Position numbers and translations under genes: made by a program. 47,758 nt of DNA from Acidobacteriota bacterium (lineage in GTDB: Bacteria; Acidobacteriota; Terriglobia; Acidiferrales; UBA7541), in the NCBI GenBank assembly GCA_003154775.1, contig PMES01000112.1, forward strand, positions 9,632 through 57,389, read 5' to 3'. Positions 16,967 through 33,785 of the stretch are shown piece by piece; position 1 is the stretch's first letter, and every line of letters starts with the position of its first letter. The notes beneath the pieces are model-generated. The model searched no databases, was not told the origin of the DNA, and was given only the letters and a program-made list of their open reading frames with translations.

Positions 16967-17869
16967 ATGAACTTCACGGATTGCGTTCGCGGATCGCTGA
17001 CCTTGGTTGATGGGGCCTGGGGCACCGAATTGCAGAAACTCGGCGCACCCCTGGGCGCCTGCCTGGACGAATGGAATCTCATAAAACCTGAGTTAGTGCG
17101 TCAGGTGGCGGAAAGCTATATTCAGGCCGGAAGCAAGGTGATTCTGACCAACACCTTTCGCGCGAATCCGATTAGTCTTGCACCGCATGGGCTGGACGGA
17201 CAGGTCGCAGCAATCAACCGCGCTGGCGTGAGGCTCTCGCGAGAGGCAGCGGGACGCGAGGCGCTGGTATTTGCCTCGATTGGCCCGAGTGGAAAGATGC
17301 TTGTAACGAAAGAGGTCACGCCCGAGCGGCTCCATGCGGCATTTTCCGCGCAGGCCCGCGCGCTGGCAGAGGAAAGTCCCGACGCGCTTCTGATCGAAAC
17401 GATGATTGATGTGACGGAAGCCCGGATTGCAGCGGCGGCGGCTCTGGAGACAGGCTTGCCCGTGATTGTTTCGTTCGTCTACGATTCCGGCAAGAATCGT
17501 GACCGGACGATCATGGGCGCGACGCCTGAGCAAGTGGCCACCGCTCTTGTGAGCGAAGGCGTGCACGGCATCGGAGCTAATTGCGGGGTCGGGGCACGGG
17601 AGTACGTGGCGATCTGCAAGCGCCTGGTGGCGGTGTGCCGCCTGCCGATATGGATGAAGCCGAATGCGGGGTTGCCTGAAATTATTGGTGGCGTGGCGAA
17701 ATACAAGACGACGCCGGAGGAATTCGCCGAGGCGGCAAAGGAACTTGCGAACGCAGGGGCGACCTTCGTTGGAGGTTGCTGCGGAACAAGCCCGGACTTT
17801 GTCCGTGTGCTGGCCCGGGATCCGGCGTTTCGAGCGGGAAGCGGCTTGGCAAAGGCCTCAGAAGAATAG
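16967..17869 (+). CDS. Stand-alone homocysteine S-methyltransferase
   Basis: 300 residues forming only the zinc-dependent homocysteine-binding barrel, without folate, B12 or activation domains. Visible hallmarks are DGAWGTEL (15-22), TNTFRANP (61-68), and the three zinc ligands Cys206 (GANCGVG) and Cys271-Cys272 (GGCCGTSP). The family transfers a methyl group to homocysteine to give methionine; the donor may be S-methylmethionine, betaine or a methyl-corrinoid. Its 3' end overlaps the convergent RACo-like gene by 12 bases, next to a corrinoid protein and an MttB methyltransferase. I infer that the methyl-corrinoid protein is the donor, as in a split MetH. If so, the product is methionine from an N-methyl compound. 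Donor identity is not shown by sequence. Confidence 0.88.
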   Translation: MNFTDCVRGSLTLVDGAWGTELQKLGAPLGACLDEWNLIKPELVRQVAESYIQAGSKVILTNTFRANPISLAPHGLDGQVAAINRAGVRLSREAAGREALVFASIGPSGKMLVTKEVTPERLHAAFSAQARALAEESPDALLIETMIDVTEARIAAAAALETGLPVIVSFVYDSGKNRDRTIMGATPEQVATALVSEGVHGIGANCGVGAREYVAICKRLVAVCRLPIWMKPNAGLPEIIGGVAKYKTTPEEFAEAAKELANAGATFVGGCCGTSPDFVRVLARDPAFRAGSGLAKASEE

Positions 17870-19672
17870 ACTCTGCGCAAACTTGTCCTGAAAATGCGGA
17901 TGGGTGGCCAGTTCGACATATTCGATCTGTTTGGCAAGCGACTCGCCCAGGCGACGCTGAGAGCCGGAAATAAGCATTTGCCTCGCGCCAATTCCCGCGG
18001 CATTGCCAACCTGGCGGAATTTAGCAAGAGGAATTTTGGGAAATAGCCCGATGCGCAACGCGCTCTGCACATCCAGATAGCTGCCAAACGCTCCGGCAAT
18101 GATAAATTCTTCCAGAGCCGATGCGTCCACTCCACCAACTTCGAGAAGAATCTCAATGCCAGCGCGAATCGCGGCCTTGGCAAACTGAATCTCGCTGATA
18201 TCCTGCCGCGTTAAGACGATTTCGCCGCCGCTGCCGGAGTTCTCTGCGCTGACCAGAAGATACTCGCCGCCGCCGCTGTTTTGCCGCACACGTTCCGCCC
18301 CTTTGCGAAGATTCCCGCGCGACTCCAGAACACCGGCATCGAGCAGGGCTGCAATCGCGTCGAGGATTCCGGAGCCACAGATGCCGATGGGAAGGCGCCG
18401 TTCAATCGTGTAGATCTGGATAGCGCCGCGCTCGAAGAGCACGCGTTCAATGGCGCCCGGGGCGGCGCGCATGCCGTGCCCTATATGCGCCCCTTCAAAA
18501 GCAGGTCCCGACGCACACGAGCAAGTCAACAAGCGGCCGTGGACACACAGAGTGATTTCGGTGTTGGTGCCGATGTCGATCGCCAGAAACGGAGGGCCCG
18601 ATTTGCGAGAGCCGGCGCCAATGCCAATAAGCATGGCCACGTGATCTCCGCCCACATAACCGGCGATGTTAGGCGGAGTGTAAATAGCGGCACCGGGGGC
18701 AATCTCCACGCCGAGATCGCGCGCGGCCAGGTGAAGTGGCTCAGTCGTCGCAGGCAGATAGGGTGCCATGCCCAACTGCTGAACAGGCAGACCCGCAAAG
18801 AAATGGTGCATCGCGGTGTTTCCGGCGACGACCATCTCCACGATTTGCACGGGTGAGATGGCGAGATCTATGCAAAGGTTCCGCACCATCTCGTTGAGCG
18901 TCTCGATGACTCTGCGTTGCAACTGCTGCGCGGCCCCGCCAGAATGACTCGCAAAAGAAATGCGACTGATGACGTCCTCGCCGTGGGCAATTTGAGGATT
19001 CATCAATCCGCGTTGGGCGAGCGTTTTGCCTGTCTCCAAATCCACGAGATACGATGCGAGTTTTGTTGTTCCAAGATCAACCGCAAGGCCGAAGATGCGG
19101 GTCTGCTCCGGGAGAATGCTGACAATCGTGAAGGGTGAAGATTCCTTATTAACTGCAAGTCGCAAGTGTCCTGCAAAGCGCTGCGCGGTTTCCGACAACT
19201 GTTCAAAACTTCCCGCGGCCGGTAGTACATCCTGGCCCGCGGCTTCATTGATTGTTTCCCGGAGTTTGCCGGGGAGCGACGCGTCTACTGCAATATCAAA
19301 AGGCACGACCAGCGGGTCCAGCAAAACGCCGAGGTCAAGGCCATCGAGTTGAACGCGCTGAGAGGAAGTGAGAGACTCCAGCGGAATCTCCAGAGTAACG
19401 TGGCTCGTCGGCAGGGCCTGGCATGCAAGCCGGCAACTCCTTTCGAGGAGTTCCTGCCCGAGTTTTTCTCTCTCTTGCAAAGTGGGCGCGGAGAGCGACC
19501 CTGCGGTGAGGCGTACCTTGCATTGGCCACAGGTCCCAACGCCTCCGCAAACCGCCTGCAATTCCACCCCGACGGATTGCGCAGCCGACAGCAGAGTCTC
19601 TCCCGGCGAAATTTCCGCGCGTCGTCCAATGGGTTGCAGTTCGACGACAAAGCTTTGTCTGTGGTAGGCCAT
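17858..19672 (-). CDS. RACo-like corrinoid activation protein (ferredoxin + ASKHA/DUF4445)
   Basis: 604 residues. The N-terminus is a plant-type [2Fe-2S] ferredoxin domain with Cys42, Cys48 and Cys51 (CGGVGTCGQC) and the distal Cys84 (RLACQA). A linker follows, then a middle and a large C-terminal ASKHA ATPase-like domain (FGLAVDLGTTKLASYLVDL, AIDIGTNTEITL, GICGSGILDAIAALL, IIAGAFGSYLD), the COG3894/DUF4445 family. RACo and RamA use ATP and low-potential electrons to reduce Co(II) of inactivated corrinoid proteins back to Co(I). The gene starts eight bases after the stop of the MetH-activation-like gene, so they are surely co-transcribed. The N-terminal 2Fe-2S domain makes it RACo-like rather than RamA-like, whose Fe-S clusters are C-terminal. 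Confidence 0.9.
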   Translation of the reverse strand: MAYHRQSFVVELQPIGRRAEISPGETLLSAAQSVGVELQAVCGGVGTCGQCKVRLTAGSLSAPTLQEREKLGQELLERSCRLACQALPTSHVTLEIPLESLTSSQRVQLDGLDLGVLLDPLVVPFDIAVDASLPGKLRETINEAAGQDVLPAAGSFEQLSETAQRFAGHLRLAVNKESSPFTIVSILPEQTRIFGLAVDLGTTKLASYLVDLETGKTLAQRGLMNPQIAHGEDVISRISFASHSGGAAQQLQRRVIETLNEMVRNLCIDLAISPVQIVEMVVAGNTAMHHFFAGLPVQQLGMAPYLPATTEPLHLAARDLGVEIAPGAAIYTPPNIAGYVGGDHVAMLIGIGAGSRKSGPPFLAIDIGTNTEITLCVHGRLLTCSCASGPAFEGAHIGHGMRAAPGAIERVLFERGAIQIYTIERRLPIGICGSGILDAIAALLDAGVLESRGNLRKGAERVRQNSGGGEYLLVSAENSGSGGEIVLTRQDISEIQFAKAAIRAGIEILLEVGGVDASALEEFIIAGAFGSYLDVQSALRIGLFPKIPLAKFRQVGNAAGIGARQMLISGSQRRLGESLAKQIEYVELATHPHFQDKFAQSLFF

Positions 19673-19680
19673 GGAGCAAT

Positions 19681-20397
19681 TCAGCGGTCAATCGGTTTGT
19701 GGCGGCATTTCGCGGAGACACTGCATTCGTCGCAAAGATGGCCAGCGGGCTGCGCGTGGGTGCCGAACCCCGCGGCCAGGGAAAGCGATTTGCGCGGCAC
19801 CATCAGGAATGAGGGATTGAGAGCAACACCGATCGAATGCGCATCCACAAGAGAGAAGATCTGCGTCTGGCCCTCGGCGAGAGGCCATCCGCGCATGCCG
19901 GGATAGAACTGACTTGTGGCGCGCAAACCCTCCCTCGCAGCCAGTTCAGCAAAAAAACGGCAAGCGGCGTTGGAGAGAGCGCCAATCGCGGCGGTGCCAA
20001 AACCGTCCAGAGCAAACTGCCAGGGCAAATCCACGCGCGACGCCTTGTCCATTTCCTCTTCCAGCTTTTTCCCCAGAGTAGCCACGGCGAGAAAAACTCC
20101 CTGACATCCGGCGAGCTTCCGCGCAATTCCAAACCCATTCAACTCGCTGCCACCTTTCAGCGTCACGCAAGACAGAGAGACTCCACAAATGTCCAGGCGA
20201 CGAAAAGCCACCTGTGGATGAATCAAACGATTGCCTTCGGCAATGGCTCGTTCTGCCAGGACAATGAGTTGAGGCTGGCGGGCGCGGATTTTCTGCGGCT
20301 CCGCCCCCTGGCCTCGCAATACCATGTCCACCGTGATGGCAAGTTGCCAATCGCTGCGGGTCTGCGTGGGTTCGCTCGAGATGAGATTCTGTGTCAT
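19681..20397 (-). CDS. MetH activation-domain-like protein
   Basis: 238 residues related to the vitamin B12-dependent methionine synthase activation region as a free-standing protein. Recognisable parts are GYGxW-type region QFYPGMRGW (163-171), IGVALNPSFLMVPRKSLS (189-206) and a C-terminal Cys cluster (CDECSVSAKC: Cys222, Cys225, Cys231). In MetH this domain binds SAM and helps reductive methylation of cobalamin. Stand-alone versions accompany MttB-type methyltransferases. Here the usual R-x-SPGY motif reads QFYPGM, so the Arg and Tyr that contact SAM in MetH-like proteins appear changed. It lies 30 bases after the MttB stop and eight bases before the RACo-like start. No strong ribosome site precedes the ATG. 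Confidence 0.78.
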   Translation of the reverse strand: MTQNLISSEPTQTRSDWQLAITVDMVLRGQGAEPQKIRARQPQLIVLAERAIAEGNRLIHPQVAFRRLDICGVSLSCVTLKGGSELNGFGIARKLAGCQGVFLAVATLGKKLEEEMDKASRVDLPWQFALDGFGTAAIGALSNAACRFFAELAAREGLRATSQFYPGMRGWPLAEGQTQIFSLVDAHSIGVALNPSFLMVPRKSLSLAAGFGTHAQPAGHLCDECSVSAKCRHKPIDR

Positions 20398-20427
20398 GCG
20401 ACAAGCGCTCGATTCATCTCTTCGTCA

Positions 20428-21876
20428 TCAGATTCCTGGCAGATGCGCCATGCCGGTGCGTTTTGCGTGTTCGGTAACGATGGCGCGTAAATTGTTTTCC
20501 ACGTGGGGCGAGATTGCAGGGCGTTTGTAGGCCGCCAGGAGTTCTTTCACCCGGTCGCGGGCACGCGCAAAGGCATCCCGTTTTCCCGATTGTTCCCAGG
20601 AATGAAGCGAGCCGCGGTCAATCACTTTTGAGGGGAGATGCTGCTCCATCCGAAAATACTTCCGCGTTTCCGGGATTTTCAGGAAATCGCCTTGCGCGCC
20701 GGCCTTTGCGAACATTTCGAGGGCCAGCGATTCTGTTCGTGGCTGGACGCCTTGCAGAAGGCGCTGCGCCATGGCAATGGACTCCGCATCCAGCACAAGT
20801 TTCTCCGCACTGTGGCATGCCAGCGAATCCAGCATGCCTGCCCCAGAGATCATGTTAATCCCGCCGAGGGCGCCCAGGATCGCGGCAACGCCACTCTCCT
20901 GGCCCGCTTGCGCATCCAGCCATTTTGCGTCGCTGCCAATCAAGTAGCCGTGCGTGGGCAGTCCAAACGACTTCGCCACTTGCGCGGAAGCGATATTTAA
21001 CATCGCGGTTTCGACAGCGCCCATCGGGGTGATGCCACTGCGCATGTCAAAGATGGCGGGTGCACCACCCCAAACCACGGGCGCGCCGGGTTGGGCCAAC
21101 TGATGAATGGTGATGCCGCTGATACATTCGGCGGCATGTTGGACGACGGTACCAGCGAGGGTTGCGGGGGCAGCCGCGCCAGACAGCGGCATCGCGACGA
21201 TCTCCGCGGGAACCCAGGCACGCGCGAGATCAATCAGATTCTGGGCAGCGAATTCCGACATATGCAGCGGCGGCGAAGGACACACATCAAAAATCGCGCG
21301 GGGCTTCTCCCGGAGAGCGGCGGGGCTGCCGCTGTCCGCCACAAGCAGGTCGATCATGGCGGGCGCGCTATGCGGAGAAAATGCTCCGGTCACGATGGGC
21401 TTGTTCGAATACCAGAGCACCAGGAACAACCGGTACAAGTCGCCGATCTCTTTGGCGGCATCGTTGCAAACCACGGCGGTGGATTGCGCGGCGTACTGCG
21501 GCAACATCTCCGCAACCTGCACCAAGCGCACTAAATCGGCGGACTGGGTCAGGCGGTGTTCGAGAGTTTCCGGGTCCAGGATGTGCACGCAAGAGGAGCC
21601 CGGGTCGAATTGCACATTATCGCCACCGTATTTCACGACGGGTTCGCCCGCGCGATTGTGCAGTTGGAATTCTCGCGGGACGCTCTCGATGGTCCTGCGG
21701 GCCAACGATTCCGGAATGTGGGCTACCCCGTTTTCCACCCGCGCTCCCGCGGAGGCGAGCAGATCGCTCGCCTCGGGGCCCTGCACGGTCACGCCGCGTT
21801 GAAAGATGAGAGCGAAGGCTTCTGACAGGATTCGCTCGAGAAGTTCCGCATCCAGTAATCGTAGGTTCGGCTGCAT
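20428..21876 (-). CDS. MttB-family methyltransferase, non-pyrrolysine type
   Basis: 482 residues from the ATG at 21876, close to the family length. Longer in-frame starts overlap the corrinoid gene and add a basic, unrelated leader. The whole barrel is read without any in-frame amber codon, so this is a non-pyrrolysine member like glycine betaine methyltransferase MtgB. Segments typical of the family include VKYGGDNVQFDPGSSCVHIL, FDVCPSPPLHMSE, MPLSGAAAPATLAGTVVQ, and SAQVAKSFGLPTHGYLIGSD. Such enzymes move a methyl group from a quaternary amine (glycine betaine, proline betaine, carnitine and similar) to Co(I) of a partner corrinoid protein. That partner is encoded 22 bases upstream. The methylated substrate cannot be named from sequence. 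Confidence 0.9.
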   Translation of the reverse strand: MQPNLRLLDAELLERILSEAFALIFQRGVTVQGPEASDLLASAGARVENGVAHIPESLARRTIESVPREFQLHNRAGEPVVKYGGDNVQFDPGSSCVHILDPETLEHRLTQSADLVRLVQVAEMLPQYAAQSTAVVCNDAAKEIGDLYRLFLVLWYSNKPIVTGAFSPHSAPAMIDLLVADSGSPAALREKPRAIFDVCPSPPLHMSEFAAQNLIDLARAWVPAEIVAMPLSGAAAPATLAGTVVQHAAECISGITIHQLAQPGAPVVWGGAPAIFDMRSGITPMGAVETAMLNIASAQVAKSFGLPTHGYLIGSDAKWLDAQAGQESGVAAILGALGGINMISGAGMLDSLACHSAEKLVLDAESIAMAQRLLQGVQPRTESLALEMFAKAGAQGDFLKIPETRKYFRMEQHLPSKVIDRGSLHSWEQSGKRDAFARARDRVKELLAAYKRPAISPHVENNLRAIVTEHAKRTGMAHLPGI

Positions 21877-21898
21877 TTGCAATCGGCCCGGTTGATTC

Positions 21899-22567
21899 TT
21901 ATCTGACAGGCATCTCCCGCTGCTTTTTGAGCAGGCTCTTGGCCAGCGCCACGGACGCGAACGCATCTTTTCCATAACCATCCGCGCCGATCTCGTCGGC
22001 CCAACTCTGAGTGACTGGAGCGCCGCCCACAATGATCTTTACGCGTGGACGAAGACCGTGCCGCTCCAATGCTTCGACAACATCCTTCTGCCCCGTCATC
22101 GTCGTGGTCAACAGAGCAGAGACGCCGATGAGGTCGGCGTTCAGTTCCTTGGCTTTGAGGGCAAACGACTCAAAGGGAACGTCGACGCCAAGATCGAACA
22201 CTTCAAATCCATTCGCCGAAAGCATCGTTCCGACGAGGGTTTTCCCAATTTCGTGAATATCCCCCTTCACCGTTCCCAGCACAACTTTCCCAAGCGATTC
22301 GCGCGCCGCGCCCGCCTTCTGAATCTCCGGCTCCAGGGCGGAGGTCGCCGCTTTCATGGCTTCTCCGGCGAGCACCAGGTCAGGAAGAAACATCTCGCCT
22401 GCTTCGAACTGCTGCCCTACGGCGTTCAATCCGGGAACGAAGCCATGATGAATGGCATCGAGCGGAGGGATGCCTTGGGCGATTGCCTTGAAACTGAGTT
22501 CCCTGGCGTGGTCAGGATCGCCATCGATGATGGCCTGCTTCATTTCCTGGAAGAGTTGATCCTGCAT
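21899..22567 (-). CDS. Methyltransferase corrinoid (B12-binding) protein, MttC/MtgC-like
   Basis: 222 residues from the ATG at 22567, chosen for GAGG five bases upstream and for matching the length of MtbC/MttC proteins. The helical cap domain spans about 1-90. The Rossmann B12-binding domain has DxHxxG as GDIHEIG (Asp103, His105, Gly108), the Ser of VSALLTTTM (Ser150) and IIVGGAPV (178-185), all cobalamin-binding hallmarks; His105 should be the lower cobalt ligand. It carries the methyl group between the MttB enzyme and an acceptor enzyme. First gene of a minus-strand operon with MttB, the MetH-activation-like protein and the RACo-like protein. I found no cobalamin riboswitch before it. Confidence 0.93.
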   Translation of the reverse strand: MQDQLFQEMKQAIIDGDPDHARELSFKAIAQGIPPLDAIHHGFVPGLNAVGQQFEAGEMFLPDLVLAGEAMKAATSALEPEIQKAGAARESLGKVVLGTVKGDIHEIGKTLVGTMLSANGFEVFDLGVDVPFESFALKAKELNADLIGVSALLTTTMTGQKDVVEALERHGLRPRVKIIVGGAPVTQSWADEIGADGYGKDAFASVALAKSLLKKQREMPVR

Positions 22568-28014: not shown

Positions 28015-29376
28015 TCAGGCGTGGGAAGTCACCGCCTCTTTTTTCTCTACCACGTGCGCCAGTCCCGCTTCCAGCACATCCAGCCCTTCATCGAGCTGGG
28101 CGTCGCTGATCACCAGCGGCATGAGGATGCGCATGATGTTATTCAGAGTTCCAGCGGTAATCGTGAGGAGGCCGTGCTCATAGCAGTAGCGTGCGAGTTC
28201 CTTCGTTTCGGTACCGGCAGGTTCCCGCGTGTCGCGGTTGCGCACCAATTCGATCGCGCACATACCGCCAAGGCCGCGCACGTCGCCAATCAGTTGCCAT
28301 TTTTTCTGCCAGCCGTTGGCTCGGTCTTCAAAGCGTTTGCCGATGAACGTGGATCGCAGAAGCAATCCTTCCGTTTCGATGGTTTCCAGTGCCGCCAGCG
28401 CCGCAGCGCAGGATGCCGGATTGCCGGCGAACGTGCTGCCCAGGCCGCCGGGTTGCGGTGCGTCCATGATTTCCGCTCGCCCTGTCACGGCAGCGATGGG
28501 CAAACCTCCGCCAAGAGATTTCGCCGAAGTGATCAGGTCCGGCTCGACACCATAATGCTCGATCGCAAAATACTTACCAGTGCGGCCGATGCCGGATTGC
28601 ACCTCGTCCGCGATGAACACGATGCCGTACTTCTTGCAGATATCCTTGAGGATGGGGAAGAACTCCTTCGGCGGGGCGATGAATCCGCCTTCGCCCAGGA
28701 CGGGTTCCGCAATCACAGCGGCCACTGAGTCCGGCGACACCACGCGCTTGAATGTGTCTTCGAGATGATGCGCGCAAGCTGTGCTGCAGGACGGGTAGGT
28801 CAAGCCATACGAGCAGCGGTAGCAATAGGCATAGGGAATGCGGTAAATGTCGCTCGCAAACGGAGCAAACCCCGCCTTGTACGGATTGGTCTTGCTGGTC
28901 AAAGACAACGTCAGCAGCGTGCGGCCGTGAAACGCATCCTCGAAACAAATCACCGCGGGCCGCTTGGTGTACGAGCGCGCAATCTTGACCGCGTTCTCCA
29001 CCGCTTCGGCACCCGTATTCACAAAGAACGTCTTCTTTGCAAACTTGCCCGGCGCCAGCGAGTTCAGTTTTTCCGCGAGAGCAATATAAGACTCGTAGGG
29101 AGTCACGCCAAAACAGAGATGCAGAAACTTTCCGGCCTGATCGCGCACTGCCGCTTCCACCTTGGGAGCGCGGTGCCCCACATTCAGGCAGCCGATGCCG
29201 CCGGCAAAATCAATGTAGCGATTCCCATCAACGTCCTCGATCCACGCGCCTTCCGCCTTCGCCGCGAAGATGGGCGTCACCAGGGACGGCCCCCGCGGAA
29301 TGGCGGCTTCCCGCCGGGCCAGCAGCGCTCTGGACTTGGGGCCGGGGATTTCTGTGCGAATCTGAATCGTTTTCAT
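28015..29376 (-). CDS. gabT: Class III aminotransferase, GABA-transaminase-like
   Basis: 453 residues from the ATG at 29376, which has AAGGAA just upstream; the listed longer start has none. It is a fold-type I PLP enzyme: Asp257 in FIADEVQSGIGRTG binds the pyridine nitrogen and Lys286 in SAKSLGGGLP forms the Schiff base. AFHGRTLLTLSLTSK and the Cys-rich YCYRCSYGLTYPSCSTAC insertion are shared with 4-aminobutyrate aminotransferases. It should convert an omega-amino acid such as GABA plus 2-oxoglutarate to the semialdehyde and glutamate. It is the last gene of the operon, 47 bases after the aldehyde dehydrogenase that could oxidise the product. The exact substrate is inferred; beta-alanine or a polyamine-derived amine is possible. 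Confidence 0.85.
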   Translation of the reverse strand: MKTIQIRTEIPGPKSRALLARREAAIPRGPSLVTPIFAAKAEGAWIEDVDGNRYIDFAGGIGCLNVGHRAPKVEAAVRDQAGKFLHLCFGVTPYESYIALAEKLNSLAPGKFAKKTFFVNTGAEAVENAVKIARSYTKRPAVICFEDAFHGRTLLTLSLTSKTNPYKAGFAPFASDIYRIPYAYCYRCSYGLTYPSCSTACAHHLEDTFKRVVSPDSVAAVIAEPVLGEGGFIAPPKEFFPILKDICKKYGIVFIADEVQSGIGRTGKYFAIEHYGVEPDLITSAKSLGGGLPIAAVTGRAEIMDAPQPGGLGSTFAGNPASCAAALAALETIETEGLLLRSTFIGKRFEDRANGWQKKWQLIGDVRGLGGMCAIELVRNRDTREPAGTETKELARYCYEHGLLTITAGTLNNIMRILMPLVISDAQLDEGLDVLEAGLAHVVEKKEAVTSHA

Positions 29377-29423
29377 GGTTCCTTGTTCCTTTGTCCGAAA
29401 TTCAGCCGATCTCTTCAAACTTC

Positions 29424-30905
29424 TCAGTACCAGCCAATCGGTGTTTCATCGAGATTGACGAAAACTTGCTTGGTCTCCAGATATTCCTCGAGACCCCACG
29501 GTCCGAGTTCTCTTCCGAACCCGGATTGCTTGTATCCGCCCCACGGCGCTTCCACGTAGGTGGGTTGCATGTGATTGACCCACACGATTCCGGCGCGAAT
29601 GGACTTCACCACGCGAAACGCTTTGTAAATATCGCGCGTCCATACAGCCGCCGCCAATCCATACGGTGTGTCGTTGGAGATGCGGATGGCCTCCGCTTCG
29701 TTCTCGAAAGGAATCACGCTGGCCACCGGCCCGAAAATCTCTTCGCGGGCGATGCGCGCGGAGTTTTGCACGTCATAAAAAATAGTCGGCTCGACGTAGT
29801 AGCCCTTGGCGAACGCCTTCGCCCTTCCCCCGCCAATCGCGGTCTTGGCCTCTTTCTTGCCGATTTCGAGATACGAGGTGACCCGGTCGTACTGCTCCTT
29901 GCTGACCAGCGGCCCCATTTTCGTGTCGCGGTCCAGCGGCGGCCCCAGCTTGATGCGCTTAGCCTTTTCCGTCATGGCCTCCACAAATTTCGTGTAGATC
30001 TTCTTCTCAACCAAAACGCGGCTGCCCGCGGAGCAAACTTCGCCTTGATTGATGAACACGCCAAAAAGCGCGCCATCCACCGCCGCTTCCCAATCCGCGT
30101 CGGCAAAAAAGACGTTTGGCGATTTGCCGCCCAATTCCAGCGTCACGCGTTTCAGCGTATCGGCGGCGCTCTTCACAATGATTTTTCCGACCGCCGCACT
30201 CCCCGTGAACGCCACTTTGTCCACGCCCGGATGCGCGACCAGTGCCGCACCCGTAACTTCACCAACGCCGTTCACGACGTTGACCACGCCCGGCGGCAAC
30301 CCTACTTCCTCGAACCAGTTCGCCAGTTCCATGGCCGTCAGCGGCGTTTGCTCGGCGGGCTTGAGCACGCAGGTACAACCCGCTGCGATCGCCGGCGCAA
30401 GTTTCCACGCCGCCATCAGCAGCGGGAAATTCCACGGAATAATCTGGGCTGCAACCCCCATCGGCTCGCGCAGCGTGAAGCTCAGCGCGTTCGCGGGCAC
30501 CGGATTGACGTGGCCCGTCACCTTATTCGCAAGGCCGCCGTAATATTCAAAGCAGGTCGCCACATCGGCCAGGTCATATTCGGCTTCCACGATGGGCTTG
30601 CCACAGTTGCGCGCTTCGAGCTCCGCTAGCATCGCGGTGTTTTGCCGGATCTTGTCGGCGATCTTGAAGAGGATGCGCCCGCGATCCTGCGCCGTGGTTT
30701 GCGCCCATGGCCCGGAGTCAAACGCGGCGCGGGCCGCTTTCACAGCTATGTCCACATCCGCGGCGGTTGCCGAGGCCACGTGGGCAATCACCTCTTCGGT
30801 CGAAGGATCATAGACCGGAAACGTCTCGCCGGACGAGCTGGCTACCCACTGCCCATTGATATAGTTCTGGTAGGATTTCACCGTTGGTTTTGCCGTAGTG
30901 GACAT
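29424..30905 (-). CDS. NAD(P)-dependent aldehyde dehydrogenase
   Basis: 493 residues, a full-length ALDH. Catalytic residues are visible: Asn159 in PWNFPLLMAAWKLAPAIAAG, Glu257 in LELGGKSPN and the nucleophile Cys291 in QGEVCSAGSR, and the closing HMQPTYVEAPWGGYKQSGFG. It resembles betaine-aldehyde or gamma-aminobutyraldehyde/aromatic-aldehyde dehydrogenases rather than succinate semialdehyde dehydrogenase (GabD), but closeness to one branch cannot be set by eye. It oxidises an aldehyde to an acid in the cytoplasm. The start has GGGAGG six bases upstream. It follows the permease gene by 24 bases, in the middle of the amine operon. Confidence 0.92.
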   Translation of the reverse strand: MSTTAKPTVKSYQNYINGQWVASSSGETFPVYDPSTEEVIAHVASATAADVDIAVKAARAAFDSGPWAQTTAQDRGRILFKIADKIRQNTAMLAELEARNCGKPIVEAEYDLADVATCFEYYGGLANKVTGHVNPVPANALSFTLREPMGVAAQIIPWNFPLLMAAWKLAPAIAAGCTCVLKPAEQTPLTAMELANWFEEVGLPPGVVNVVNGVGEVTGAALVAHPGVDKVAFTGSAAVGKIIVKSAADTLKRVTLELGGKSPNVFFADADWEAAVDGALFGVFINQGEVCSAGSRVLVEKKIYTKFVEAMTEKAKRIKLGPPLDRDTKMGPLVSKEQYDRVTSYLEIGKKEAKTAIGGGRAKAFAKGYYVEPTIFYDVQNSARIAREEIFGPVASVIPFENEAEAIRISNDTPYGLAAAVWTRDIYKAFRVVKSIRAGIVWVNHMQPTYVEAPWGGYKQSGFGRELGPWGLEEYLETKQVFVNLDETPIGWY

Positions 30906-30929
30906 AAACCACCTCCCAAATTCTTTTCC

Positions 30930-32390
30930 TTAGACTACCGCAGAATTCGTTGCCAACTTGCGCGCCGCTTTGCGGCTTCCATACACATAAAAGAAAAATG
31001 CCGCCAGCCCGATGAATAGCAGGGTTCCGCCAATCATCCAGATTTCATACGAGAGCAGCGAAGTGATCTGCTGCGCCGGGAAATAGGCCAGGGCAATGCC
31101 GAGAATGGTTGTGATGAACCCGCTGACGCCCGCGAAAATGAGCGTTCCTTTGCCGTAGTGGCCGCGGACAAATTTTGCATCCACGGCGATTTTCAGCAGC
31201 GCGCCAAATATATAGAGAAATGGGATCAACTGCAGGACTACGGCGAGCGACAGCAGGCGCTGGAATGATTCCTGCACGCCGCCCGTTGCCAGGAAGTTGG
31301 CAATCACCAGGATCAGCGAAACGCTCGCATGCACAATCAACGCGGCGTAAGGCGTGGCGTATCTTGGGTGAATCTTTCCGAGCCACGAGGGCATGTAGGA
31401 GTCCAGGCCCGCCACAAACGGGATTCGCGCGGACCCGCCTAACCACGCCGAGCCTATCCCCGCGATGGACAAACTGAGCAGAAAAGCGAACGGCGCCACG
31501 ATCCAGGCGACGCCGACGCGCGAAGCCATGTGGCTGACGGCCTGAACGATGCCCTGAAGCACGCTGATGCTGTTCTTGTCCACAGCCACCAGCAGCGTCA
31601 GGGTTGCGCCGATATAAAGGAAGCCGGACAGCACGCCGCCCCACGCAACCGCGCCGGGCAATGTTTTACGCGGATTTTCGATTTCATCGCCCATGACGGA
31701 AGCGAGTTCCAAACCCACCAAACCAAAGCAAATGACCCCGAACGAATTCAAAACGAATCTCGGATTGGCGGGGATTTGAAAATCCGCCCAGTGGATGTTG
31801 GTGCCAAATTTCAGGCAGACGATGATGCCGAGACCCATAAGTAAAAAGGCCGCGATGAATGTGCCGATTCCGCCAAGATTGTTGACCCACTTGCCCACGC
31901 CAAGTCCCATGATGTTGAGGATCACCAGCAGGGCCAGCAGCACTACCGAAGCCGCCAAAGCAAAATTCTTGTTGTCGGCAAGACCCGCGTGGCTCGGGCC
32001 CAGCACAAACACGGAAACGCCGACGAAATACAACATCACCGTCGGCACGTACATCATGTTGTTCGTCCAGTAGCACCAGCCAGACAGAAAACCATGGAAA
32101 TCGCCAAACACTTCCTTGGCCCACAGATAGACGCCGCCCTCGCCAGGATAACGGTGGGCCAGTTCGATTACGGCAATTCCTTGCGGCCAGAAAAACAACA
32201 GAAGCGAGATCAGCCAGAGCCAGACTGTCACACCGCCATTGGCGGTAATCGAAGGCAATACGTTGAGGTTAAAAACGGCAACAACAAAAAGCAGCACGAG
32301 GTCGCGCCGCCCAAGCACCCGCTTTAAATGCGGCCGCTCGGGTTCCGAAGCCGGCGAAGCGGCTGGCGTTGTCGTGACCTCGTCGCTCAA
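30930..32390 (-). CDS. APC-superfamily amino acid/amine permease
   Basis: 486 residues, about twelve hydrophobic segments. The first has the family's unwound-helix pattern and VLPSITANGGVTVW; further marks are ELAHRYPGEGGVYLWAKEVF and CYWTNNMMYVPTVMLYFVG. The class imports amino acids, GABA or polyamines across the inner membrane by proton or exchange coupling. The start is TTG at 32390, with GGGAG ten bases upstream, 12 bases after the aminotransferase stop; translational coupling is likely. In the operon it should supply the substrate of the two aminotransferases or the dehydrogenase. Confidence 0.9.
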   Translation of the reverse strand: MSDEVTTTPAASPASEPERPHLKRVLGRRDLVLLFVVAVFNLNVLPSITANGGVTVWLWLISLLLFFWPQGIAVIELAHRYPGEGGVYLWAKEVFGDFHGFLSGWCYWTNNMMYVPTVMLYFVGVSVFVLGPSHAGLADNKNFALAASVVLLALLVILNIMGLGVGKWVNNLGGIGTFIAAFLLMGLGIIVCLKFGTNIHWADFQIPANPRFVLNSFGVICFGLVGLELASVMGDEIENPRKTLPGAVAWGGVLSGFLYIGATLTLLVAVDKNSISVLQGIVQAVSHMASRVGVAWIVAPFAFLLSLSIAGIGSAWLGGSARIPFVAGLDSYMPSWLGKIHPRYATPYAALIVHASVSLILVIANFLATGGVQESFQRLLSLAVVLQLIPFLYIFGALLKIAVDAKFVRGHYGKGTLIFAGVSGFITTILGIALAYFPAQQITSLLSYEIWMIGGTLLFIGLAAFFFYVYGSRKAARKLATNSAVV

Positions 32391-32402
32391 TCCTGTTGCT
32401 CC

Positions 32403-33785
32403 CTAGTTTCCCGCCGCACCGACAGATTGGGCGCCACGTTCCTGCTGCGTCTTGGCCATCCCGGGCGCGACCTCCTCAAACACCGCGAGGTGCTTGTCGA
32501 TGTCCGCTTCGGTATGCTGCACGGAGACGGTCCACTGTTCGTCCCACCAGTACGGCATCGCCAGGACGCCGCGATTGACCATGCCAAACCAGAATTGCCT
32601 CCACAGGTCCACGTCAATCTTCATCCAGTCGCGATAATTCCGGATTTCCTGCAAATAAAGCATCAGCGCGCCGTTGACCCCTGCCTGGGCCACATACGCC
32701 TTCAGGCCGGTCTTCTTGAGGATCGCGCGGTAGCCCTCCGCAAGTTTCTTGCTGAGTTTATTCACGTGGGCATAGTTTTCGCGGGTGAGAACTTCGCGGA
32801 AGGTCGCCAGACCCGCGGCCATCGCGAAGCGATTCGTGTTGTACGTGCCGCCGTGGAAAACCTTGTGCTGGACGATAAGGTCCATCACTTGGCGGCCCGC
32901 GCCAAACGCCGCCAGCGGCACCCCGCCACCAATCGATTTCGCCAGCGTGATGATGTCGGGCTTCACCCCAAAGTACTCGCTGGCGCCGCCCCAACAGAGC
33001 TTCGCGCCGGTCTTCACTTCATCGAAGATCAGCAGCGCGCCATTTTTGTTGCAGATTTCGCGCAGTCCTTCCAGGAAGCCAGGTTGCGGCATGCATATGC
33101 CGATATTCATCATGATCGGTTCCAGAATGATGGCCGCGATCTGGCCGGGAAACTGCTTGAAGCGATTTTCCACGCTGGGCAGATTGTTGAACGTGGCCAC
33201 AGTAACGTTGTCGAGGACCGCCTGGATCACGCCCAACCCGCCGGGCACGGAGTTTGGCGCATTGATGTCGCCGTAGTCCTCTTCCTTCGGCTTCACGCTA
33301 ACGAGTGCGGTGTCGTGCAGGCCGTGGTAGCCGCCCTCAAACCGCAGGATTTTGTCGCGACCCGTGGCGGCGCGGGCGATGCGGCAGGCGTGCATGGTTG
33401 CTTCCGTGCCGCTGGAGCCGAAGCGCACCATCTCGACGGGATAGCGAGCGCAAATCTCCTCGGCCAATTCGGCTTCCATGCCATGGGGCATGCCGAAGGT
33501 GGTGCCATTCTGCAGCGCCCACTGGATAGCCTTCACCACCGCCGGATGCCCGTGCCCGGCCATCAGCGTGCCAAAGCATAGGTTGTGGTCGAGATATTCG
33601 TTCCCATCCATATCCACGATCTTGCTGCCGTGACCTTCGGCCACGAAGATCGGGTAGGGATCATAGGCGCGGTAGTTGCTCGCCACGCCCAGGGGAATGC
33701 GCTTCTGCGCCTTCCTGTGAGCTTCCGCGGATTTCGGCGTGCGCTTCTCGTAAAGAGCGAGTTCCTTCTGAAGTGCTTCTTGCAT
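32403..33785 (-). CDS. Class III aminotransferase, GSA-aminomutase-like
   Basis: 460 residues from the ATG at 33785 (GGAG upstream). A fold-type I PLP enzyme with Asp255 (IFDEVKTG) and Schiff-base Lys283 (LAKSIGGGVP). Segments such as MVRFGSSGTEATMHACRIAR, FEGGYHGLHD and VFHGGTYNTNRFAMAAG are characteristic of glutamate-1-semialdehyde 2,1-aminomutase and its relatives. In this catabolic operon a role in tetrapyrrole synthesis is unlikely; relatives act on beta-amino acids or on other amines. First gene of the four-gene operon. Its substrate is unknown; it could feed an aldehyde to the dehydrogenase downstream or racemise/aminate an amine. Confidence 0.87.
   Translation of the reverse strand: MQEALQKELALYEKRTPKSAEAHRKAQKRIPLGVASNYRAYDPYPIFVAEGHGSKIVDMDGNEYLDHNLCFGTLMAGHGHPAVVKAIQWALQNGTTFGMPHGMEAELAEEICARYPVEMVRFGSSGTEATMHACRIARAATGRDKILRFEGGYHGLHDTALVSVKPKEEDYGDINAPNSVPGGLGVIQAVLDNVTVATFNNLPSVENRFKQFPGQIAAIILEPIMMNIGICMPQPGFLEGLREICNKNGALLIFDEVKTGAKLCWGGASEYFGVKPDIITLAKSIGGGVPLAAFGAGRQVMDLIVQHKVFHGGTYNTNRFAMAAGLATFREVLTRENYAHVNKLSKKLAEGYRAILKKTGLKAYVAQAGVNGALMLYLQEIRNYRDWMKIDVDLWRQFWFGMVNRGVLAMPYWWDEQWTVSVQHTEADIDKHLAVFEEVAPGMAKTQQERGAQSVGAAGN

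Follow-up and report, generated by a model that had tools for sequence, protein, structure and literature searches.

In a 47,758-nucleotide stretch of DNA (the window) from an Acidobacteriota bacterium, we examined five genes between positions 16967 and 22567 that form a corrinoid methyl-transfer locus. On balance, we read this locus as a split methionine synthase that works without folate and receives its methyl groups from an MttB-type demethylase. In such a system, the MttB-family enzyme would move a methyl group from a methylated substrate onto the corrinoid protein, and the methyl-corrinoid protein would dock with a stand-alone zinc homocysteine methyltransferase (Hcy) to give methionine. 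Co(II) corrinoid would be restored by a MetH-type activation protein through reductive methylation with S-adenosylmethionine (SAM or AdoMet), and an ATP-driven RACo-like protein could act as an additional reactivator in this genome and one other. We infer the methyl route, its substrate, the docking of the corrinoid protein with Hcy, and the reactivation chemistry. The transfer of methyl-corrinoid to homocysteine, as in a split MetH, was the core of an original prediction made from the bare sequence, and it is partly supported here, in that no folate enzyme was found and Hcy belongs to a corrinoid-linked clade.

Composition of the locus

Four of the genes form a run on the minus strand, with intergenic gaps of 22, 30, and 8 bases. 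They encode a corrinoid methyl carrier resembling MtgC/MtbC (21899..22567, 222 aa; PF02607 and PF02310), an MttB-superfamily methyltransferase without an amber codon that is the presumed methyl-donor enzyme (20428..21876, 482 aa; PF06253, 294 bits), a stand-alone MetH-type activation (AdoMet-binding) domain protein recognized from its predicted structure (19681..20397, 238 aa), and a RACo/RamA-like ATP-dependent reductive corrinoid activator with an N-terminal 2Fe-2S domain (17858..19672, 604 aa; PF00111, PF17651, and PF14574). The fifth gene lies on the plus strand and encodes Hcy, a stand-alone zinc homocysteine S-methyltransferase and the presumed acceptor module (16967..17869, 300 aa; PF02574, 223 bits). 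All five genes lie where the original prediction placed them, and Pfam and structure matches bear out their families. The tail-to-tail overlap ascribed to Hcy also stands, as the end of its gene overlaps that of the RACo gene by 12 bases, but because the two are convergent, Hcy is a neighbor of the operon and not a member of it.

The MttB frame is open, with no in-frame TAG, and the enzyme thus lacks an amber codon, as had been claimed; a control MttB from Desulfobacterales (L160:6291-7838, minus strand) has TAG at the corresponding, pyrrolysine position. In an alignment, the MttB of the window has Gly at the site where 7xcl shows X, a residue that we take to be pyrrolysine. The best solved relatives are 7xcl, a trimethylamine methyltransferase (189 bits), and 9yce, a glycine betaine methyltransferase (182 bits), and since these scores nearly tie, assignment of a substrate by similarity was dropped. 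The corrinoid protein scores 246 bits against NF047995 (MtgC), under the cut-off of 310, and carries the DxHxxG motif.

The best PDB match of Hcy is 1q7m (144 bits), a MetH fragment presumably from Thermotoga maritima; BHMT and 5dml reach 60 and 63 bits, respectively. Cys206, Cys271, and Cys272 are invariant in an alignment of 18 sequences including that of the window, and we assume by analogy with MetH and BHMT that these are the zinc ligands. The RACo-like protein has a Fer2, RACo middle, and RACo C-terminal layout in Pfam and matches 3zyy, an iron-sulfur cluster binding protein that is presumably RACo, with an E value of 2e-104.

The activation-like protein matched no Pfam or NCBIfam family at an E value of 0.001, and phmmer relates it to 1j6r with an E value of 9.6e-5. 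Five AlphaFold models were made with an alignment of 6 rows (pLDDT of 85, 84, 62, 48, and 39), and all 19 PDB matches of the best model with E values of ≤0.001 are methionine synthase, the first being 1j6r from T. maritima. As a yardstick, an annotated stand-alone activation protein from Peptoclostridium scores 26.4 bits with the Pfam model, only just over the cut-off of 25, and it was recovered by the profile built in this analysis. In MetH, the activation domain serves the corrinoid that methylates homocysteine, and an activator of the SAM type therefore points to homocysteine as the acceptor.

Folate enzymes and gene neighborhoods across genomes

The source genome is a "Candidatus Acidiferrum"-type metagenome-assembled genome (MAG) of 4.63 Mb that is 98.2% complete, and no folate:corrinoid methyltransferase of known type was found in it, in keeping with what had been stated for the window in the original prediction. 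PF00809 matches two proteins in the genome, DHPS and MetH; the MtrH family (PF02007) gave no hit; and the sole hit of NF005719, the profile for MtgD, is the domain in MetH, with 143 bits against a cut-off of 259. These negatives hold for the three profiles, outside which a divergent MtgA could fall. The incompleteness of the MAG is a small risk, lessened because three further genomes bearing the locus give the same result. Separate homocysteine, cobalamin, and activation proteins are present, as expected of a split cobalamin synthase, and the pterin module for methyltetrahydrofolate was not found. PF06253 (MTTB) has a single match in the genome, the copy in the window, and PF02574 has three, namely, a complete MetH, a fusion of Hcy with MTHFR, and the Hcy of the window. 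The fusion protein exceeds its NCBIfam cut-off, and its gene adjoins that for cystathionine beta-synthase. A consistent MtgA-like partner elsewhere in the genome, which the original prediction had named as a finding that would speak against it, was not seen: four of the five genomes with the locus lack MtgD and one (G022) has it. Across all 54 genomes searched with NF005719, 11 exceed the cut-off, and G022 is the only one of the five among them.

Within the genus, represented by 36 genomes that were common to the class sample and the family scan, MttB occurs in 5 genomes, and these are also the only 5 of the 89 genomes of the family to have it. The activation gene is found in the same five genomes, and an Hcy of the clade of the window is found in those five plus one more (G146). 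The order corrinoid-MttB-activation gene with a convergent Hcy is kept in all five, one of the named relatives being "Candidatus Acidiferrum typicum" UBA7541 (L106). RACo lies within the locus only in the source genome (G000) and G196, and no match to it was found anywhere in G214, G005, or G022. G146 has a corrinoid gene interrupted by in-frame stops, which continues into an Hcy gene without its zinc-site end, and MttB and the activation gene were not found there. The module genes are under purifying selection in two genome pairs, with ratios of nonsynonymous to synonymous substitution rates (dN/dS) of 0.08 to 0.23: for G000 and G196, these are 0.13 for Hcy, 0.14 for RACo, 0.20 for the activation gene, 0.08 for MttB, and 0.16 for the corrinoid gene, and for G214 and G005, they are 0.16 for Hcy, 0.23 for the activation gene, 0.13 for MttB, and 0.18 for the corrinoid gene. 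Because the corrinoid gene, MttB, the activation gene, and a convergent Hcy recur in 5 of 36 genomes and are under such selection, their association exceeds chance.

The wider relationships of Hcy also tie it to corrinoid proteins. In a FastTree phylogeny (105 of 116 domain hits kept, with a duplicate MetH row [L005] and identical rows dropped), the six Hcy proteins of the genus form one group (support, 99) inside a corrinoid-linked Hcy clade, outside which fall MtgE of Sinorhizobium meliloti, MetH, the Hcy-MTHFR fusion, and MmuM. We then read the neighborhoods of the best 80 of at least 571 relatives; these are the nearest relatives and not a fair sample, and contig ends truncate many of the loci. 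Of these 80 named loci, 41 have a corrinoid gene within 5 kb of Hcy, and in 36 it is on the same strand. Other genes within this distance are URO-D (30 loci), DUF1638 (26 loci), RACo (24 loci), the activation gene (6 loci), MtgD (5 loci), and MttB (4 loci), and none of these partners is present in 22 loci. Of the 45 loci that extend at least 3 kb to either side of Hcy, 10 have no partner gene; of the 30 that extend at least 8 kb to either side, 20 have a corrinoid gene within 5 kb and 2 have one beyond that distance. The neighborhood comparison suggested in the original prediction thus upholds the linkage of Hcy to corrinoid genes across phyla; in the loci read, linkage of Hcy to MttB was seen only in one genus and at two Desulfobacterales loci.

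The four loci with MttB near Hcy are L106 and L107 from the genus of the window and L132 and L160 from Desulfobacterales. On the Desulfobacterales chromosome carrying L132, MttB is directly upstream of Hcy on the same strand, 137 bases apart, and the one-strand group at L132:5905-10852 consists of two ABC transporter permeases, then MttB, and then Hcy, with MtgD elsewhere in the genome. In L160, MttB lies 2.1 kb from an Hcy of the same clade, on the opposite strand. In the loci read elsewhere in the class, MttB stands without Hcy, and for a group of MttB proteins at 42 to 48% identity (L049 to L055 and L194), no corrinoid gene was present in the stretches read.

A widespread operon has the order corrinoid-Hcy-DUF1638-URO-D (MtaA/CmuA-like)-RACo. 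It is found at the loci L058, L060, L062, L063, L067, and L068 of one family (our f7), and the named loci that carry it include L110, L116, L156, L158, and L183. Nine of the f7 genomes read combine corrinoid, Hcy, and RACo genes, and among these nine, URO-D is present at the locus in six and DUF1638 in all; the one URO-D protein scanned, that of L058, matches the MtaA/CmuA family below the cut-off. By NF005719, MtgD is lacking in all nine (one of these, G109, is a single contig), including the six that carry the operon with URO-D. The extra PF00809 proteins of G109 and G029 are DHPS-like, just under the DHPS cut-off, and in the profile search none of the others from f7, including that of G080, reaches the MtgD cut-off. 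In a second family (f6), MtgD is present in 7 of the 12 genomes searched, and in six of these 7 its gene is no more than 2 kb away from Hcy; these loci look like the published split MetH.

Closer to the window, genus g5 of the same family has the order corrinoid-URO-D-activation gene-RACo in four of six genomes read (L206, L207, L208, and L212), and the operon continues into a pterin-binding protein where the contig extends; of the other two loci, L210 is cut and L213 is without URO-D. Because the activation gene is followed by RACo in g5, the module of the window shares its activation-RACo arm with that genus. Five of the six g5 genomes are without MetH, and four of those five have a single stand-alone PF02574 protein. 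A corrinoid-URO-D-MetH-type activator-RACo operon like that of g5 was also seen at L215, in genus g8 of the same family.

The corrinoid protein has a different history. Its relatives in the genus group with those of corrinoid-MttB pairs from another family (f11) with a support of 99 in a tree that kept 69 of 83 rows (rows of <150 bits, identical rows, and those of >330 residues were dropped). The MttB tree places a partial sequence from f11 (L048) with those of the genus, whose own group is not strictly one clade; both the corrinoid and MttB trees come from short searches and have several long branches. Since the corrinoid and Hcy trees place the partners in different lineages, the locus looks like a hybrid, in which an MttB-corrinoid pair may have been joined by an Hcy of the split-synthase lineage and by an activation gene of the type found in its own family.

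In f11 itself, nine genomes match MttB, seven with complete copies (63 to 68% identical) and two with partial ones. We read the seven complete loci (L048 is cut, and the ninth was left out). These, L041 to L047, are two-gene corrinoid-MttB pairs with neither a reactivase nor Hcy nearby, and no further conserved neighbor was found among gene clusters common to at least three of the seven.

Elsewhere in the window, positions 28015-33785 hold a same-strand group of a class III aminotransferase, an aldehyde dehydrogenase, an amino acid permease, and a second class III aminotransferase, which looks like an amino acid degradation operon. No riboswitch was found in the window at the Rfam gathering level.

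Alternative destinations for the methyl group

Several observations weigh against a split methionine synthase that does without folate. The Hcy gene converges on the operon from the other strand and is not cotranscribed with it, and the corrinoid protein comes from the MttB lineage, which the tree separates from the corrinoid proteins encoded in Hcy operons, so its docking with Hcy is not guaranteed. MttB lies within 5 kb of Hcy in only 4 of the 80 loci, with URO-D, DUF1638, and RACo being far commoner neighbors, and both Desulfobacterales genomes with MttB near Hcy also have MtgD. The activation protein reads Q-F-Y-P-G-M and does not keep RxxxGY, presumably the AdoMet motif of MetH, and the activation gene of G022 is divided between two reading frames. 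That genome also carries the MtgD-like gene noted above (L192:8186-9193, minus strand), which is near a contig end, matches profile positions 1 to 219 of 268, and has an aberrant C-terminal part; it is broken, misassembled, or divergent. Because the source genome holds a complete MetH, with all five Pfam domains, as well as the Hcy-MTHFR fusion, methionine formation in itself does not require the module. Finally, the seven complete f11 pairs have no linked Hcy, neither RACo nor the activation gene is present in any of the nine f11 genomes, and MtgD is present in one (G251, beside an MTHFR-like gene). Such pairs need some other acceptor, which may serve here too. The activation gene was searched for with a single query protein at an E value of 1e-5, a search that missed the activation domain of this genome's own MetH; distant activators would therefore escape it.

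The best placed of the alternatives, which we nonetheless consider unlikely, is that Hcy acts alone as a betaine-, dimethylsulfoniopropionate (DMSP)-, or S-methylmethionine:homocysteine methyltransferase and that the MttB/corrinoid operon is a separate, neighboring demethylation system. The convergent orientation of Hcy fits this, as does the lack of any partner gene within 5 kb in 22 of 80 relatives, or in 10 of the 45 loci that reach 3 kb or more to either side of Hcy. There is also a precedent, as the homocysteine part of the Phaeobacter split synthase, Bmt, is reported to use betaine and DMSP for methionine formation in vitro with no cobalamin present (PMC12366255). However, the sequence of Hcy is closer to the homocysteine domain of MetH than to BHMT or 5dml, and its length of 300 aa is far below the 406 to 407 aa of the solved BHMT chains. 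In addition, its clade is corrinoid-linked across phyla, and within the genus it occurs only where MttB does or, in G146, beside the remnant of a corrinoid gene.

Next in probability, and likewise improbable in our estimation, is the delivery of methyl groups from MttB and the corrinoid protein to tetrahydrofolate, either by way of the folate domain in the cell's own MetH or through an unrecognized methyltransferase. The f11 pairs favor this, since they are without a nearby Hcy and their genomes mostly lack MtgD, RACo, and the activation gene; moreover, MetH is present in all nine of the MttB-bearing f11 genomes versus two of nine picked f11 genomes without MttB, six of the latter nine being from one genus. 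On the other side, only DHPS and MetH were found for PF00809 in this genome and nothing was found for PF02007, and we know of no case in which the folate domain of MetH serves a free corrinoid protein. The profile result has its own bound, because MtgA of Desulfitobacterium hafniense is described as being without sequence identity to known structures (PMC7154762), and a divergent acceptor could thus escape profiles.

That the methyl group is passed to another thiol, or that the locus is a relic without a fixed acceptor, seems to us quite improbable: clusters of URO-D, corrinoid, and reactivase genes free of folate enzymes have been proposed to salvage methyl-sulfur and methyl-selenium compounds (PMC10418091), and RACo is missing from three of five genomes, the activation gene is split in G022, and the locus has decayed in G146, but the module genes are under purifying selection in two genome pairs and the corrinoid gene, MttB, and Hcy are kept together in five genomes.

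Taken together, a split methionine synthase fed by an MttB-type demethylase remains our preferred reading. If it is true, soil acidobacteria turn the methyl groups of plant- or microbe-derived amines into those of methionine, and hence of SAM, in two B12-dependent steps, and serine, folate, and reducing power are spared. It would also mean that the donor part of a cobalamin-dependent methionine synthase is a replaceable cartridge, and dozens of so far unexplained corrinoid-Hcy operons of uncultured bacteria could readily be interpreted in the same way. More tentatively, and with rather less confidence than for the locus itself, a widespread class of split methionine synthases might have a constant core (a free corrinoid protein, a stand-alone zinc Hcy, and a reactivase) and an exchangeable donor, allowing many of the bacteria that have them to make methionine directly from environmental methyl compounds without folate. 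The donor would be MttB in "Candidatus Acidiferrum" and a URO-D protein (MtaA/CmuA-like) in groups such as Bryobacterales and Verrucomicrobia, with a pterin protein taking this role in further bacteria. The compounds used would be methylated amines and, with URO-D, perhaps O-methyl, S-methyl, or halomethyl compounds; a donor enzyme of the URO-D superfamily has been shown to act on haloalkanes (PMC13222342).

Comparison with known systems

The general idea is already published, for marine bacteria with MtgBCDE of Ruegeria in 2025, where a folate enzyme takes part, and in the folate-independent shortcut synthases in 2021; the version without MtgD is new. A literature search, the coverage of which mostly left out subscription papers, found no description of an MttB-corrinoid-Hcy set without a pterin enzyme.

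MtgBCDE, described in Ruegeria pomeroyi and S. meliloti (Mausz et al. 2025, PMC12478193), of which we also read the S. meliloti stretch, resembles the locus in having an MttB-family donor, a free corrinoid protein, a stand-alone Hcy, and a RamA-type reactivase, and in that system demethylation and methionine synthesis share the corrinoid protein. It differs in its pterin protein MtgD, which is essential for both functions (PMC12478193) and was not found at the locus of the window. Furthermore, MtgBCDE is accompanied by DUF1638 and MetF genes, whereas the locus is without DUF1638 and has a MetH-type activation protein instead, and MtgE of S. meliloti is only 33% identical to the Hcy of the window and falls in a different clade in the FastTree phylogeny. 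Phaeobacter inhibens has a split MetH, described with a RamA-like protein and DUF1638 (Price et al. 2018, PMC5764234), in which the homocysteine and cobalamin modules are likewise separate and a RamA-like reactivase is present; its third module is a pterin-binding protein, in the place of which MttB is found here.

As in the window, MtgABC of D. hafniense and the MttB-superfamily systems of Eubacterium limosum pair a nonpyrrolysine MttB-family enzyme with a corrinoid protein. In the E. limosum systems, the methyl group goes to tetrahydrofolate. This is also its destination in D. hafniense, where MtgA is the enzyme (PMC7154762), and no such enzyme was found here. The core methionine synthases MesA to MesC (Price et al. 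2021, PMC7857596) take the same shortcut, with the methyl group coming directly from a corrinoid protein without folate, although this is in part a prediction of the authors; they are MetE-type enzymes of strict anaerobes, whereas the locus has a MetH-type PF02574 enzyme and an MttB donor. Lastly, the corrinoid-Hcy-DUF1638-URO-D-RACo operons of Bryobacterales, Verrucomicrobia, Chloroflexi, and others resemble the locus in that their Hcy belongs to the clade seen in the window and is accompanied by a corrinoid protein and a RACo-like protein; they differ in that URO-D fills the donor slot in six of nine f7 genomes, DUF1638 is present in all nine, and the corrinoid protein is of another lineage than that of the window.

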